DNA of 64,000 nt, taken from NCBI GenBank assembly GCA_900316745.1, contig ONEB01000009.1:57285-121284 (forward strand), given 5' to 3'. This stretch comes from an uncultured Eubacteriales bacterium. Lineage in GTDB: Bacteria > Bacillota > Clostridia > Oscillospirales > Oscillospiraceae. This document shows, in pieces, positions 57,932-64,000 of the stretch. How positions within the stretch are numbered: the first letter of the stretch is position 1; the number at the start of each line of letters is the position of its first letter. The notes beneath the pieces were generated by a model, which ran no database searches, was not told the origin of the DNA, and saw only the letters and a list, made by a program, of their open reading frames with translations. The position numbers were made by a program, and so were the translations under genes.

Positions 57932-58015
57932 GATAAAATGGATCTCTTCTTGAATCTATGAAAGGTTTTTGTTTCAATCTTTACTATATATATGAAGCGG
58001 GAAGGGAGTGAGCAT

Positions 58016-58573
58016 TTGAACGACCATGATATTATCACTTTATTTTTTGAGCGCTCTGAGCAGGCGGTTGCTGAGTTGATCTTTAAATATGAGAGCGATG
58101 TAAAAAGCATTGTGTTTCATGTTCTGCGTGACGAAAAGGACGTTGAAGAGTGCGTAAATGATGCATGGCTTCAAATTTGGAATACGATTCCACCTGCCAG
58201 ACCGGACTCCCTTTGTGCGTATGTCTGCCGAATTGCTAAAAACATATCGCTCAACCGTTATCATGCGAACACAGCGAAAAAAAGGAACAGCATTTACGAC
58301 GCGGCGCTTGATGAATTGGAGAATAACGTGCCAGCGCTGGCAAGCGTGGAATCGGAATATGATGCGAAGGAACTTACTGAGCATTTGAACCGGTTCCTGA
58401 AAAAGCTTTCATACGATGATCGATATTTGTTCTTGCGCCGCTACTGGTTTGGAGATGCGGTTTCAGAGATTGCTGAACGGATGCATATCAGTACAAATGC
58501 CGCTTCCATTCGGCTGTATCGTATCCGAAGAAAACTTCAAGGCTTTCTAAAGCGAGAGGGGATGATGGAATGA
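58016..58573 (+). CDS. ECF-type RNA polymerase sigma factor
   Basis: The 185-residue protein has sigma region 2 (FERSEQAVAELIFKYESDV, DVEECVNDAWLQIWN) and region 4 with an HTH (AVSEIAERMHISTNAASIRLYRIRRKL). It directs RNA polymerase to a special promoter set. TTG 58016 (then NDHDIITLFF) follows GGGAG at good spacing and matches the usual family start; ATG 57992 is an alternative. The stop overlaps the next start (ATGA), typical of sigma/anti-sigma pairs. Confidence 0.9.
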   Translation: MNDHDIITLFFERSEQAVAELIFKYESDVKSIVFHVLRDEKDVEECVNDAWLQIWNTIPPARPDSLCAYVCRIAKNISLNRYHANTAKKRNSIYDAALDELENNVPALASVESEYDAKELTEHLNRFLKKLSYDDRYLFLRRYWFGDAVSEIAERMHISTNAASIRLYRIRRKLQGFLKREGMME

Positions 58574-59604
58574 ATCGAAGGCTGATATCAGAAGCACTCA
58601 ATCAAATTGACGATGGCTTGATTGCCGAAGCAGCAACATATCTTGACCGACAAGCGGATGCTGCGACCTCGAGCCATGTAACACGGACGCCCACATACAG
58701 AAAAAGCTATCTACGTTTTGCTTTGATTGCGGTGTGTGCTGGCCTTGTCCTTACAGCGGCGGTGTTCGCCGTAAGGTACTGGGGGATCAGAGAAATGTTG
58801 CAGTCCTCCGGAAAAGATTATCCCGATGGCGCGGAGGAGTTATTACAGCAACCGAACGCATATGCAGAAACAGATACGTGGAACGCCCGTATAACAGAAT
58901 TGATGAATGATGACCATTCTATCATAGCGTGTATTATGGTAAATGGCGGAGACCAATATGTCGTTGTCCCAATGGATGCAAACTCGTATGACTCGGTAAG
59001 TCTCATAGGGCTTTCCGGAGACCAAACGTTGGAGGAGTACGCAGCATCAAAAAAGAAAATGTTGCTGTTCGCAGGCAGCTACATCGGATCTTCCGAGTCA
59101 AAGGCTAAGTGTTCTTCATTTTTGCATTTTGAAAGGATCTCCGATGGTGAAATGAAGATTCTGATTTGCGCGCAGAGAAACAGCGACACAGAGGGAACGG
59201 AAGTGATCTGCACTGTATCAGCGTGGACAGAGGGACGTGCGGCAGAAGAACATTTGGATTTTCCTCTGCAACTGCAGGATGCAAAATATGAGACCGTTGT
59301 ATTTGTTCCGAACAATCCTGATTCCGTCCCGGGTATTCATGTTGGTGAAGCGGAAGTCACATTCACACCACTGGGGGTCAATGTGTCTTTTCCCATCGAA
59401 TGTGAAGAGACGAAGCCGCCGTATAGAGTGGAATGCGACGAGCTTCAAGACTATGGGGGCGGCATGGTTCTGGATAACGAAACATGGCGTGTCCAGTGGT
59501 TTATGGGAAAAGGCAATATCGCGAGTACCATGACCTGGCGTTTTTATGATAAAAACGATGTGCTTGTGGGAACAATCGTCTTTCATGTTGAAGATATAGA
59601 ATGA
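58570..59604 (+). CDS. Putative membrane anti-sigma factor
   Basis: The 344-residue protein has a short cytoplasmic N-terminal segment (MNRRLISEALNQIDDGLI), one membrane helix (residues 48-68; YLRFALIAVCAGLVLTAAVF) and a large outer domain with no family I recognise. Coupling to the sigma gene by a 4-base overlap and the topology support an anti-sigma role, the outer domain sensing a signal. It is not a canonical ZAS protein: no HxxxCxxC motif is present. Confidence 0.72.
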   Translation: MNRRLISEALNQIDDGLIAEAATYLDRQADAATSSHVTRTPTYRKSYLRFALIAVCAGLVLTAAVFAVRYWGIREMLQSSGKDYPDGAEELLQQPNAYAETDTWNARITELMNDDHSIIACIMVNGGDQYVVVPMDANSYDSVSLIGLSGDQTLEEYAASKKKMLLFAGSYIGSSESKAKCSSFLHFERISDGEMKILICAQRNSDTEGTEVICTVSAWTEGRAAEEHLDFPLQLQDAKYETVVFVPNNPDSVPGIHVGEAEVTFTPLGVNVSFPIECEETKPPYRVECDELQDYGGGMVLDNETWRVQWFMGKGNIASTMTWRFYDKNDVLVGTIVFHVEDIE

Positions 59605-59847: not shown

Positions 59848-61116
59848 TTATGAGTCTGCGCAAGGTGACTGACGATTCATCTTCGTGAAGTCAAACATCT
59901 TATTGTGCTTCTCTTCAATACCACTAACATTCTTTTCCGCGATCTCGTGATTCACACCAAGCAAAAAAGCAAAGTCATCAATGTTAATCTGTTTTAGTAT
60001 GTAAGCGCGTTCTACTAACTCCCGTACATTCGCGTTTTTTCTTTGCAAAAAACCGTTCCAGACTTCAATATTTTCAGATATTGGAAAAGGTTCTGTTCTG
60101 CGTGCGTTTGATGTGTCGAGCAAATTATAAAAGTCTTCTACTACTTCACGAGAGATATACCCGTTGTCGCGAAGGCTCAGCATGACTGACTGAAGGCTTA
60201 GTTGAACACGATGCTTTATATTAAGTGCTAGTGGAAGAATCTTTCCAAGATCATTCGCGCTCTGATTTAACTCCAATGCATATTGATAATACAGAGACGG
60301 CGGAGAAACAAGCCTAGCTGCAAACTTGTTAGCCATGTGATTTAGATAGTCTTCATAGAATTCGTTATTGATTTCTACATATTCACTATAGTATTGGGGG
60401 CGGTGCAATAGAATATGTCCGTATTCATGCGCAACTGTGAATAGCTGGCGTTCGATTGTAATGTCGGGATTTGAATTGACGAAAATGAAGCATCCGCAGG
60501 ATTCGCTACAAACAGAAGCACCTGATACATCATTACAACCAAAATCAAGGAAGATCACTTTGATCCCCTTTTTTTCTAATGCAGGAATTATCGAAATTGC
60601 CCCGTCTTGCTGCAAAGATAGATTTGCACGTTGTTCATCTGCAATGGAGAGAATGTCCTTTTCAATTACTTCATCTAGTTTTTCTGGCTGCTTGATCACT
60701 CTGCCAAGCTCCCGATTAACGTTTATTTTCTCTCCTCTGATGGTCGCAAAAAGATCATACTGTTCAGGTATAAAGATGGAATAATAACCGACCGCTTTAG
60801 CGATGCTGTTGAATTTTTTAATGTATGCACGCAACAGCTCTTCGCCATATGAAAAAAAATTGCTTTGGTTTTCTGTGGGGCGATAGCAAATTTTCACATC
60901 CGCTTCATCAGTGCCAGCAAGGATTTGTTCAATAGGAACTCTAAAAAAATGAGCAAGCTTAACAAGCTGTACAGTATCAAAAGTTCCATTACCCTTTAAA
61001 TATTTTGACACTGTTTGCCGGCTTAAATCAAGATAGTCCCCCAATTCATTTTGCGTCACATGGTTGTTTATCATAAGGCGCTTAACATTCGAAGCAACAA
61101 TAGTTTCTAAATTCAT
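59848..61116 (-). CDS. XRE-ImmA/IrrE-type zinc peptidase
   Basis: The 422-residue protein starts with an HTH (QNELGDYLDLSRQTVSKYLKG), followed by a middle region with the HEYGH zinc motif (VAHEYGHILLHRP, near residue 240) and a long C-terminal part with helices of unknown role. ImmA/IrrE peptidases cut repressors when stress or DNA damage occurs and so release mobile elements or defence genes. Fusion with the HTH is common. AAGGTGAG precedes the ATG. Any target repressor is unproven; the small XRE at 57.6 kb is one candidate. Confidence 0.85.
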   Translation of the reverse strand: MNLETIVASNVKRLMINNHVTQNELGDYLDLSRQTVSKYLKGNGTFDTVQLVKLAHFFRVPIEQILAGTDEADVKICYRPTENQSNFFSYGEELLRAYIKKFNSIAKAVGYYSIFIPEQYDLFATIRGEKINVNRELGRVIKQPEKLDEVIEKDILSIADEQRANLSLQQDGAISIIPALEKKGIKVIFLDFGCNDVSGASVCSESCGCFIFVNSNPDITIERQLFTVAHEYGHILLHRPQYYSEYVEINNEFYEDYLNHMANKFAARLVSPPSLYYQYALELNQSANDLGKILPLALNIKHRVQLSLQSVMLSLRDNGYISREVVEDFYNLLDTSNARRTEPFPISENIEVWNGFLQRKNANVRELVERAYILKQINIDDFAFLLGVNHEIAEKNVSGIEEKHNKMFDFTKMNRQSPCADS

Positions 61117-61256
61117 TCTCTCACCTTATTTCCGCTAATTATCAACGCGCCATCAGTATAGCAAGGCAAAAAATGCTTGTCAAGATGGAATGTTAAACAA
61201 AATTAACATCATATTGTGTAAGCGAGTGTTCAGATCTCCAAATATGGGAATGTAGC

Positions 61257-61286
61257 TTGACATTTCTCGGGGGAGGGATTTATAAT
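61257..61286 (+). promoter_or_regulatory. Strong promoter before the toxin-like reading frame
   Basis: -35 TTGACA (61257-61262), 18-base spacer, -10 TATAAT (61281-61286). It would drive the short RNA that contains the 11-codon frame and perhaps the downstream ubiquitin-like operon. Confidence 0.7.
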
Positions 61287-61379: not shown

Positions 61380-61415
61380 GTGGCCTTGAAAAAAAGAAGA
61401 CCACCTCAACAGTGA
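61380..61415 (+). pseudogene. Eleven-codon frame, possible collapsed type I toxin gene
   Basis: AAGGAG (61366-61371) and an ATGATAAC spacer lead to GTG 61380, giving MALKKRRPPQQ and a stop. The strong ribosome site and the KK-rich end resemble small Firmicutes holin-like type I toxins, but the membrane helix expected between start and tail is absent. I read this as an internal deletion of the toxin. The evidence is limited to layout. Confidence 0.35.
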
Positions 61416-61515
61416 TCTTCTCATAGAGATGTGACCCCAAACGTTCCATTGGGTTCACGCCGCCTTGCAACTCCAATGCGGGCTACCACACCCGATTGAG
61501 TCAAAGCTCCCTAGC
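61389..61515 (-). ncRNA. Candidate antisense small RNA (type I antitoxin-like)
   Basis: On minus, promoter TTGCAA (61550-61545), 17-base spacer, TACAAT (61527-61522) would start an RNA near 61,515. It ends at a hairpin GAAGA-CAC/GTG-TCTTC (61420-61396) followed by T7 (61395-61389). The RNA, about 127 nt, overlaps the 3' end of the short plus-strand frame, the arrangement of type I antitoxins. It also contains GAACCCAA/TTGGGGTC-type pairing. Confidence 0.6.
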
Positions 61516-61606
61516 AAAGCTATTGTACTCCCTCCAATTGGATTTTGCAAGGTGAAATGCATGGAACAATGTACGAAATCTCATTTCAATTATGGAGGAC
61601 CTAAAC

Positions 61607-61870
61607 ATGAATAATCTTAATCAACACACGAAGCCCGCTCATGCCTTCAAGTTTAAGGTACGCAATCAGACGTTTGAGTGGCCTTCCCAGCACATCACGG
61701 GAAGGGAAGTCCTGACTGCTGCAGGCTTGGTACCACCCGAGAACTATAAGCTTGATCTTAAAACTCACGGGAATGTCTATCGCGAGATTAAGCTCAACGA
61801 CGTAGTCGACCTAAGCGAGCCTGGAATTGAAAAATTCACGTATATCAGTAGAGATCAGTCGGAGGGCTAA
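61607..61870 (+). CDS. Ubiquitin-like beta-grasp modifier (multiubiquitin family, single domain)
   Basis: The 87-residue protein has the beta-grasp pattern of the prokaryotic multiubiquitin family: FKFKVRNQTFEWPSQHITGR (first hairpin and helix start), LTAAGLVPPENYKLDLK and a final strand EKFTYISRD. It ends in a single Gly (SEG) rather than a GG tail. It contains one domain where many relatives have two or more. ATG 61607 follows GGAGG by seven bases. It is the first gene of a four-gene unit with E2-, E1- and DUF6527-like proteins. Confidence 0.82.
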   Translation: MNNLNQHTKPAHAFKFKVRNQTFEWPSQHITGREVLTAAGLVPPENYKLDLKTHGNVYREIKLNDVVDLSEPGIEKFTYISRDQSEG

Positions 61871-61873
61871 CCC

Positions 61874-62278
61874 ATGGGAGACAGAAAAGCTTTTTTTCTT
61901 TCGTCTGACGATACCGAGTATCTGAGCAATACGTTCCCACATTGGGAAACCCTTCCCGGCCAATGGCTCCTGATCCACGACTTTCCCGTGTGCGAAGGCT
62001 ATACGGCTGAACGAACCACTGCAGCAATCAAGATTCCGACAGACTATCCTGCTGTCCCGCTTGATATGGTCTACTTCCACCCTGCGCTAGTACGTTCCGA
62101 TGGAAAAACGATTCCCAGAACAGAATGCACAGTGACCATTGATGGCCTTCCGTTCCAGCGCTGGTCGCGACACTATCGGACTGGTGAGTGGATCCCAAAT
62201 GAAGACAATCTTGCAACGCACGTACTTGCGATCAGCGGATGGCTAGAGCGCGCTTCAGCTGCGCAGGTGGCAAAATGA
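61874..62278 (+). CDS. E2-like protein (prokaryotic E2 family E type)
   Basis: The 134-residue protein has the block IPTDYPAVPLDMVYFHP (residues 54-70), a TVTIDGLPFQRWSRH block (86-100) and a C-terminal helix starting WIPNEDNLATHVLAI. This is the pattern of the small E2-like family found with bacterial multiubiquitin genes. Two Cys are present, Cys40 and Cys85; which, if either, carries the modifier is not clear. GGAGGG lies eight bases before the ATG. It starts three bases after the modifier gene and overlaps the E1-like gene (ATGA). Confidence 0.8.
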   Translation: MGDRKAFFLSSDDTEYLSNTFPHWETLPGQWLLIHDFPVCEGYTAERTTAAIKIPTDYPAVPLDMVYFHPALVRSDGKTIPRTECTVTIDGLPFQRWSRHYRTGEWIPNEDNLATHVLAISGWLERASAAQVAK

Positions 62279-63564
62279 TGGAACGTTCGTTTCGAATTAC
62301 CCAAAAACAACTTGACAACCTTGGAAGCCTTATGGCTTCCAAGGCCACTGGGAGCGTTATTTTGGCTTCGTGTGGTCGCGGCAGAGCTGTATTCCCAGAT
62401 GCGACAGAGCGAGAATCATGGTCATATATTGGCGGGGAGAAGGAGCTCGAAGTATCTGATTTAAAAGCGATGTCGTTTGATGGCAAGCTCTCATATTGCG
62501 TTGTTGCCCAACCAGATGAACTAAGTGAAATTGCATTCGATTTCCCAAACTGTATCTGGGTCGGTATTTCCTTTAACAGAGTTACTGCTTTCTATTGGAA
62601 TGGATCTTTAGTCTCTGTCGATATATGCGAAGTTGTTGGGCATTCAATCAATATCATATCAGCTAGTGAAGAGTCATACAGCGCTAACGATTTCAACATA
62701 CGCACAAGGCAGACGTTTGGCAGGGGAACAACGGAAGTCCTCTCCTCCTTAACAATTGGGGTTGCTGGAGCATCTGGGACTGGAAGCATTGTGGCAGAGC
62801 AGCTATTCCGTCTCGGAGTAAAGCGGTTGATCTTAGTCGATGATGATTCGGTCGAAGAAGTTAATCTTGGGCGAATATTGAATGCCGGGAGAACTGATGT
62901 GCTACTTCGAAAGAACAAAGCTGAAATGCTTAAGGAAAAGTTTGACGCCATGGGACTGGAATGTGAAATAATTGCAGTTCCTTCAACGATAACCGGTAGA
63001 AAGGCATTGCGGTATCTATCCCAGTGCGATGTCCTTTTTGGGTGTTTAGATTCCGCAGATGGAAGAATGCAGTTAAATCGGATAGGAACGTTTTACACAA
63101 TCCCTGTAATTGATATTGGAGTGAAACTCGTTTCGGATAGAGGGGAGCTTTCAGAAATAAGTACTGCTGTAAGGTATATTGTTCCTGGAGAGGCCTCGCT
63201 GCTAAGCCTTGGTGTCTATAGCACCGAGCAACTGCAAAGTGAATCGCTTCGAAGAGCAGATCCGGTTGCTTATCGCGACAGGCTTAAGGAAAAATATATT
63301 ATAGGAGCACAAGAGAGTGCACCTGCTGTTATCAGCATCAATATGTTAGCTTCAAGCTGTGGTGTGATCGAACTGCTTAACAGGATTCATAGTTTTAGGG
63401 ATACGCCAAATAAGGATGTTGAAATCATTTCTTGTAATTTGTTGGAGCCTTATTTTAATGTGGCGCCGCCATCTGAGCCGGATACAGCGTTGGCAAAGTA
63501 TCTTGGGCGAGGCGATTGCATTCCGTTCTTAGATATGCCATCTTTGGGGGAGATACCACTATGA
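62275..63564 (+). CDS. E1/ThiF-like adenylating enzyme, JAMM motif not visible
   Basis: The 429-residue protein has a Rossmann-type ATP-binding segment GVAGASGTGSIVAEQL (163-178), LILVDDDSVEEVNLGRI with the metal/ATP Asp and Arg200, and CLDSADGR (257-264), as in ThiF/E1 enzymes that adenylate the C terminus of a modifier. In relatives the N-terminal 150 residues are a JAB/JAMM peptidase with an HxH-type motif. Here the start is similar (RSFRITQKQL) but no such motif is seen. ATG 62275 overlaps the E2-like stop. Confidence 0.85.
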   Translation: MMERSFRITQKQLDNLGSLMASKATGSVILASCGRGRAVFPDATERESWSYIGGEKELEVSDLKAMSFDGKLSYCVVAQPDELSEIAFDFPNCIWVGISFNRVTAFYWNGSLVSVDICEVVGHSINIISASEESYSANDFNIRTRQTFGRGTTEVLSSLTIGVAGASGTGSIVAEQLFRLGVKRLILVDDDSVEEVNLGRILNAGRTDVLLRKNKAEMLKEKFDAMGLECEIIAVPSTITGRKALRYLSQCDVLFGCLDSADGRMQLNRIGTFYTIPVIDIGVKLVSDRGELSEISTAVRYIVPGEASLLSLGVYSTEQLQSESLRRADPVAYRDRLKEKYIIGAQESAPAVISINMLASSCGVIELLNRIHSFRDTPNKDVEIISCNLLEPYFNVAPPSEPDTALAKYLGRGDCIPFLDMPSLGEIPL

Positions 63565-63884
63565 TCCTACAAAGATTGTGCTTGTTCTTCAGCGGATTAC
63601 GAAAAGGGCTTCAAATAGTCGGAATTGAGGATTACCCGGAGATCGTTGACGAGAACACTTTCTACGTAGTGGGCAATTTGAGTAGACCACAATATGCTCT
63701 GTTCAAATGCCCCTGTGGGTGTGAAGCAACAATTGAGCTTAATCTGAATCGCAGTTCTAGGCCGTGTTGGAGAATCAAATGGAGCCCTTTGGGGACAGTC
63801 TCCATTTCGCCATCTATCAATCGAAAAGTTGGCTGCCAAAGTCATTTTTTCCTAACAAAAAGTTCCGCCTACTGGTGCAAGTAA
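63561..63884 (+). CDS. DUF6527 zinc-binding protein of ubiquitin-like operons
   Basis: The 107-residue protein has FKCPCGCEATIELNL (Cys50, 52, 54), then PSINRKVGCQSHFFL and a terminal WC, the metal-site pattern of DUF6527. Such proteins accompany multiubiquitin operons, and their role is unknown. The start lies in an ATGA overlap with the E1-like gene. It closes the four-gene unit. Confidence 0.82.
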   Translation: MILQRLCLFFSGLRKGLQIVGIEDYPEIVDENTFYVVGNLSRPQYALFKCPCGCEATIELNLNRSSRPCWRIKWSPLGTVSISPSINRKVGCQSHFFLTKSSAYWCK

Positions 63885-64000
63885 GAGATGCCTTCAAGGG
63901 AAATTGCAATCGGCGGTGGGCGGCGGCCGCTGATGCGGTGACCAACGGCCGCCCGGCGGTGGTAGCGGCCGGACAGTTTAACCGGTCGCTTTCGGCTTAA
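63885..64000. other. Window end, GC-rich tail
   Basis: After the DUF6527 stop the base composition changes at about 63,930 from AT-rich to very GC-rich (GGCGGCGGCCGC, CGGCCGCCCGG). An open frame crosses it but has no recognisable match. It may be the start of another segment or an assembly end. Confidence 0.4.

Follow-up and report, generated by a model that had tools for sequence, protein, structure and literature searches.

The window analysed here is a stretch of 64 000 nucleotides (nt) from contig ONEB01000009.1 of an uncultured Eubacteriales bacterium, and near its end lies a four-gene operon for ubiquitin-like conjugation. The operon encodes a ubiquitin-like modifier (Ubl), an E2-like protein, an E1 and a DUF6527 protein, all on the plus strand and with intact frames. 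In relatives the N terminus of the E1 is a JAMM peptidase; here that region carries no JAMM motif. Features of the operon, numbered from the first base of the window, are as follows.

61607..61870, plus strand: Ubl (BubA-like), one beta-grasp-type domain, C terminus ...DQSEG, no tail past the Gly
61874..62278, plus strand: E2-like protein (BubB-like), family motif QRWSRH
62275..63564, plus strand: E1 (BubCD-like), adenylation half intact, with ThiF and BubCD matches
62278..62715, plus strand: N-terminal region of the E1, site of the JAMM peptidase in relatives, shortened here by about 40 residues and lacking Glu and HxH
63561..63884, plus strand: DUF6527 protein with CPCGC...GC..H, possibly metal-binding

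The Ubl stop is followed after 3 bases by the E2 start, the E2 and E1 genes overlap by 4 bases (ATG 62275; stop 62276-62278), and so do the E1 and DUF6527 genes (ATG 63561; stop 63562-63564). A sequence-only reading of this DNA had proposed four genes here, linked by gaps or overlaps of 3-4 bases, and the coordinates and junctions agree. The Pfam families that it named for the four proteins are each matched above the curated cut-off: Multi_ubiq by the Ubl (E 2.7e-12), Prok-E2_E by the E2 (2.5e-30), ThiF by the E1 (3.2e-26) and DUF6527 (PF20137) by the last protein (1.5e-19). For the Ubl, ATG 61607 is favoured as start over ATG 61592 because a ribosome site, GGAGG (61594-61598), sits 8 bases before it.

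Among PDB entries the Ubl matches 9d59 (E 3.6e-13; multi-ubiquitin proteins were also matched), BilA (8.3e-9) and Citrobacter BubA (1.3e-6). The E2 matches Citrobacter BubB (4.6e-23); for the E1 the match is to BubCD, also of Citrobacter (1.7e-41; query residues 159-438, numbered from ATG 62239). Since BubCD and BubB are the nearest solved relatives of the E1 and E2, Bub appears to be the nearest described kind of operon, ahead of Bil and of type II CBASS (cyclic-oligonucleotide-based antiphage signalling system); the operon type proposed earlier, ubiquitin-like conjugation, stands. The adenylation half of the E1 retains the conserved Gly, Asp, Asn, Arg and Lys positions of the family alignment. 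In 49 aligned E2 rows the WSRH columns hold Ser in 49, His in 49, Trp in 45 and Arg in 47. No conserved Cys was found in the E2, no listed column having Cys in more than six of the 49 rows. Bub is said to transfer its modifier through a serine oxyester rather than a cysteine.

The JAMM site of the E1

For comparison, 53 loci were assembled that encode all or part of a Bub-type E1: the window, L006, L007, 29 plasmid loci, one viral contig and 20 further genome loci. The plasmid loci were fetched from 40 listed among 152 matching plasmid records. L008, which has the ThiF part only, was excluded from the JAMM count over these loci. With the pattern HxH-x(5-11)-[ST]xxD, a JAMM motif is found at the E1 N terminus in 51 of the 53 and is absent only from the window and from L006, a Clostridia metagenome-assembled genome locus (CAMNKQ010000001.1) whose E1 is 72% identical to that of the window. 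In the E1 alignment (51 rows, L007 and L033 excluded) Glu occupies its column in 48 rows and His occupies each of its two columns in 49; the window and L006 lack all three, and their N-terminal domain is about 40 residues shorter than in relatives. An Asp of the window is aligned to a column with Asp in 50 of the 51 rows; alone it cannot form a JAMM site because the Glu and the HxH are missing. The Asp of the JAMM SxxD is the site altered in the solved relative, D104, since PDB entries name a BubCD D104A mutant and the printed alignment places its Ala on that residue. Pfam Prok-JAB is above cut-off in both JAMM-bearing relatives examined (L013 and L015), with no match for the window at E up to 10 and none for L006 at E up to 0.1.

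The E1 N-terminal region is therefore without a JAMM motif, as the sequence-only reading had it, and the absence is specific when set against the 52 other loci, being common to the one separately assembled relative. A complete motif in this region, which that reading had named among the findings that would contradict it, was searched for and not found. The gap is present in both assemblies, which are separate, and this makes a simple assembly error improbable.

A tree of the adenylation part only, omitting the JAB columns and rooted on L042, was built from 37 rows before the last 13 loci joined (L007, L008, L030 and L033 excluded). The window and L006 form one clade (support 100/100) inside a 21-row group (100/99), all other members of which bear the JAMM motif, giving one state change on the tree. 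Loss of the motif is the simpler reading because the pair without it nests among JAMM-bearing rows. L006 shares with the window its regulator, its leader block, all four genes and the loss of JAMM, and its DNA runs on downstream of the operon into further open reading frames (ORFs). At 7894-9516 of L006, small ORFs resemble by eye a toxin-antitoxin pair and a mobilisation protein, on which account the L006 operon would lie on a mobile element.

Bub-type genes are rare near the window, as judged from searches of groups that were mostly sampled, so that the counts are not totals. Prok-E2_E is matched in two of 60 relatives, above cut-off only in the window's own genome. Searches with the E1 alignment found one of 391 genomes in the class of the window, its own, and three of 398 in its phylum, its own included (both at E <= 1e-40). 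Elsewhere such searches found 12 of 376 genomes in the phylum of G447 (E <= 1e-60), six of 326 in the phylum of G448 and one of 101 in the family of G446, namely G446 itself.

The claim that the operon is a reduced form of the system is supported as far as the JAMM site of the E1 is concerned. Its other part, that a single-domain Ubl ending in a lone Gly is also a sign of reduction, was rejected: a single-Gly end is usual across the family, and JAMM-bearing operons L015, L031 and L047 likewise have one separate Ubl domain ending at Gly. The Gly is mostly preceded by Glu, Asp or Asn, also inside Ubl-E2 fusions; departures from this rule include SPG in L016 and QQG in L068. After the Gly comes the E2 in fusions, or a short tail in some separate Ubls (e.g. 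L009, L010, L029, L054, L066 and L082). No residue follows it in the window, in L006 or in six JAMM-bearing operons with a separate Ubl (L015, L031, L047, L052, L070 and L083). The window Ubl already ends at Gly and therefore requires no trimming; such an end would permit loss of the peptidase, and does not explain it.

In L080 (Agrobacterium pusense plasmid) the Ubl and E2 matches fall in separate open frames and the Ubl frame continues into E2-like sequence, as if a Ubl-E2 fusion had been frame-shifted.

The divergent regulator and the leader block

The following features lie upstream of the operon; the divergent regulator and the leader block had no place in the sequence-only reading.

59848..61116, minus strand: divergent regulator, helix-turn-helix (HTH) and ImmA/IrrE (M78) peptidase in one protein, CapH+CapP-like (Pfam, PADLOC)
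61155..61183, minus strand: regulator promoter, TTGACA-17-TATACT (11/12); in L006 TTGACT-17-TATACT (10/12)
61257..61286, plus strand: operon promoter, TTGACA-18-TATAAT, perfect; in L006 TTGACA-17-TATAAT, perfect
61394..61515, minus strand: possible antisense RNA of about 120 nt, with a terminator-like hairpin at its end (61422-61394) and its start placed from a promoter-like site
61522..61550, minus strand: that promoter-like site, TTGCAA-17-TACAAT (9/12); in L006 TTGCAA-17-TAAAAT (9/12)

The regulator matches HTH_3 (E 3.2e-8) and Peptidase_M78 (2.6e-12) in Pfam; in PADLOC, RmrA (5.6e-23) ranks above capP (7.7e-11). Control of the CapH+CapP type combines an HTH repressor with an M78 metallopeptidase, encoded beside the promoter of the operon, and is marked by de-repression after DNA damage. 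Both domains are encoded at that place here, in a single protein, and L006 carries the same divergent arrangement. By analogy with CapH+CapP, the regulator probably holds expression of the operon off. In the stretches shown, an ImmA/IrrE-type peptidase is present in 12 of 27 annotated plasmid loci (11 by annotation, L015 by Pfam).

Between the operon promoter and the Ubl lies a conserved leader block (window 61385-61521, minus strand; L006 5107-5240), whose minus strand holds hairpins besides its promoter-like and terminator-like sites. Identity between the window and L006 reaches 97% in 61423-61490, 90% over 61385-61500 and 94% for the best stretch of 100 nt. By comparison, the regulator gene and the four genes of the operon are 61-78% identical in DNA, and 100-nt windows that start upstream of 61150 or downstream of 61607 do not rise above 83%. 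Searches for the block elsewhere gave nothing: a covariance model did not find it in the other 51 loci (best E 0.12), blastn against plasmids, phages and E. coli genomes returned no match, and no Rfam family reached its gathering score. A C4 antisense RNA was rejected (c4-a1b1, E 0.049, 17.2 bits against a gathering score of 46.7).

The block is possibly an antisense RNA over the mRNA leader. The minus strand folds better than the plus strand in both loci (z -3.96 in the window and -2.70 in L006, as against -2.26 and -1.33), the order of sites in the leader is common to both, and the terminator loop varies while its stem is unchanged save for one U-G to U-A pair. Telling against an RNA, promoter-like sites number three where shuffles of the scanned stretch give 1.5, and terminators one where they give 0.6; because these scans are near chance, the argument for an antisense RNA rests on conservation. 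The alternative, that the block is a mobile-element leftover or a DNA site for the regulator, is a serious one that we rate a little short of even. The plus strand also folds better than shuffles, the absence of an Rfam family fits this alternative, and covariation says little with two sequences (of the 43 pairs in the folded block, 32 are unchanged, five changed with pairing kept and six broken). Against this alternative stand the single copy of the block in the window's genome, the lack of blastn matches, the strand preference, the shared order of sites and the kept stem. In one literature search no antisense RNA in such conjugation systems appeared among the papers listed, at the level of titles and abstract openings.

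Just before the regulator, on the plus strand at 57992-59604, are an extracytoplasmic function (ECF)-type sigma factor gene (Pfam) and then a gene overlapping it by 4 bases whose product, membrane-anchored by eye, is a possible anti-sigma factor. At the other side of the operon, the contig and the window end 116 bases past the DUF6527 gene, which puts downstream neighbours beyond reach. The last 98 bases (63903-64000) are 100% identical to G000:C27:162930-163027 of the same genome, and related copies recur at 71-77% (C24:31-90, C28:31-125 and C35:19239-19298). Two of these copies are located no farther than 125 bases from a contig start, so the assembly may break at this dispersed repeat.

The remaining N-terminal domain and rival explanations

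Several points weigh against a simple loss of the peptidase. Six JAMM-bearing operons have the same tail-less separate Ubl, and because the loss is one event a link between it and the Ubl end is beyond statistical test. The genome is 92.5% complete and the contig stops close behind the operon, so a separate peptidase may be unassembled. Finally, hhalign finds no relation between the JAB profile and the residual N-terminal domain (alignments A7 and A8, probability 0.2%), and because the domain is thus not recognised as JAB, its replacement instead of its decay is possible. As for a second JAB elsewhere in the genome, this was rejected: the sole Prok-JAB match (E 0.003) is under cut-off and lies in an ORF read by eye as RadC.

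The residual domain has about 146 residues, and the substitutions that separate the two loci indicate that it is constrained. Nonsynonymous divergence (dN) between the window and L006 is 0.19 for the E1, 0.32 for residues 1-125 and 0.11 for residues 147-300. Synonymous divergence (dS) was computable for the E2 only (dS 1.67, dN 0.09, identity 84%), and is too high to be defined for the other operon genes.

Whether the domain is a decayed JAB is uncertain. The rival is that an unrelated domain has taken its place, perhaps one that binds substrate or E2, which would agree with the hhalign result and with constraint on the region (dN 0.32 at saturated dS). Other comparisons point back to JAB. In global profile alignment the residual domain outscores every one of 128 control segments from real proteins (z 4.1 and 3.5), and its motifs at either end can be aligned to the JAB domain. 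In local score against a first JAB profile, the window and L006 each exceed 1000 of 1000 shuffles; against a second, none of 1000 shuffles reaches the window and 10 of 1000 reach L006 (L033 and L039 were excluded from the profile). The E1 structure model is too poor in quality to inform on the fold. We regard a swap as unlikely.

A further rival makes the DUF6527 protein the deconjugase, or a second one, so that removal is intact and the JAMM half redundant. This is quite improbable. DUF6527 is near the E1 in 44 of the 53 loci and beside 42 of the 51 JAMM-bearing E1s; for this reason we take it as a core part with no obvious role as JAMM substitute, and reject it as a simple replacement. For its structure model (predicted local distance difference test, pLDDT, 86.4) the PDB gave nothing at E <= 0.001. 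Viral contigs L060-L064 hold relatives that have CPCGC plus a Cys/His pair, from 4902, 4935, 4896, 4902 and 4890, respectively, and in these five stretches the Bub E1, E2 and Ubl profiles matched nothing; these ORFs suggest that DUF6527 perhaps has a second use in phages.

That the operon is decaying and inactive is very improbable: the E1 N terminus and DUF6527 do change rapidly, being 59% and 57% identical to their L006 counterparts, yet two separate assemblies keep four intact linked frames, both operon promoters are perfect, the E2 is 84% identical with a dS of 1.67, and the leader block is kept at 94%.

Relation to known systems and mode of action

Ubiquitin-like conjugation is usually paired with removal. 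Bil (bacterial ISG15-like) systems follow a logic of Ubl, E1, E2 and peptidase, and type II CBASS combines E1-type conjugation by Cap2 with a JAB-type peptidase, Cap3. The window Ubl matches BilA; the best PDB relatives of its E1 and E2 are BubCD and BubB, and the hit lists name no E1 or E2 from Bil, perhaps because none is there under that name. PADLOC E1-E2 matches, among those listed (25 of 30), cover only the ThiF part of the window E1, and no cyclase model was matched among the window proteins searched, the DNA past the contig end being unseen.

The solved Citrobacter Bub (PDB 9ea4, 9ea5, 9ea8, 9eae and 9eav; reference entry Ye et al., Nat Struct Mol Biol 2026) has a homologous Ubl, E2 and E1. 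With Bub the window shares a BubCD-like adenylation half, a BubB-like E2, a Multi_ubiq Ubl and a nearby DUF6527, and lacks the JAMM peptidase fused to the E1 (BubC); we therefore class it as a variant without BubC and not as a standard member. In L013 (Citrobacter koseri plasmid), a relative of the Bub operon, DUF6527 is directly downstream as in the window, but a multi-domain Ubl is fused to the E2, whereas in the window the two are separate, and the E1 JAMM is intact. Upstream, L013 has two genes annotated as coding for an ATP-binding and a DNA-binding protein, which may be CapK and CapS, in place of the HTH-M78 regulator. L015 (Neotabrizicola shimadae plasmid) agrees with the window in gene order, with a separate Gly-ending Ubl, E2, E1, DUF6527 and a divergent one-protein HTH-M78 regulator; unlike the window it has an intact JAMM (HSHPGGDPAFSGVD) and a Prok-JAB match above the Pfam cut-off.

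One report (PMC13373217) treats Bub operons as putatively immune; it counts 544, of which 219 lie beside CapW or CapH+CapP, and states that phage protection by Bub is not demonstrated. JAMM-less members may already be described in the main Bub literature. Loss of a peptidase has precedent, in that Cap3 is reported (PMC11153139) not to be required for immunity in V. cholerae.

We consider it likely that this is a Bub-type operon whose E1 has lost the JAMM (BubC) half, and which probably attaches its modifier while encoding no recognisable remover. The gene identities, the missing motif and its absence from L006 too, the constraint on the residual domain and the conserved leader block are read directly from the sequences; the enzyme activities, conjugation that would be one-way or slowly reversed, the substrates, and the roles of regulator and RNA are inferred. 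The E1 would adenylate the C-terminal Gly of the Ubl, which is made ending at that residue and would need no maturation step. The activated Ubl would pass to the E2-like protein, where the likely site is the invariant Ser or His of WSRH and not a Cys, and would then be joined to a target. With no local remover of the Ubl, control would sit at expression: the divergent HTH-metallopeptidase regulator probably holds the operon off, in the manner of CapH+CapP, and an antisense RNA over the mRNA leader perhaps damps it further. More doubtful is the full scheme of a natural one-way conjugation system, in which the eraser was deleted, the modifier pre-matured, and reversibility traded for tight control by a protease-type repressor and by a dedicated antisense RNA in the best-conserved part of the locus.

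If the leader RNA exists, it would bring in a further, RNA-based level of control. The tag itself may be hard to remove and governed mainly by turning its genes on and off. A natural JAMM-free enzyme set should let conjugates accumulate, which would make substrates easier to trap, and a lineage without the eraser, with the rest under selection, poses directly the question of whether Bub needs deconjugation.

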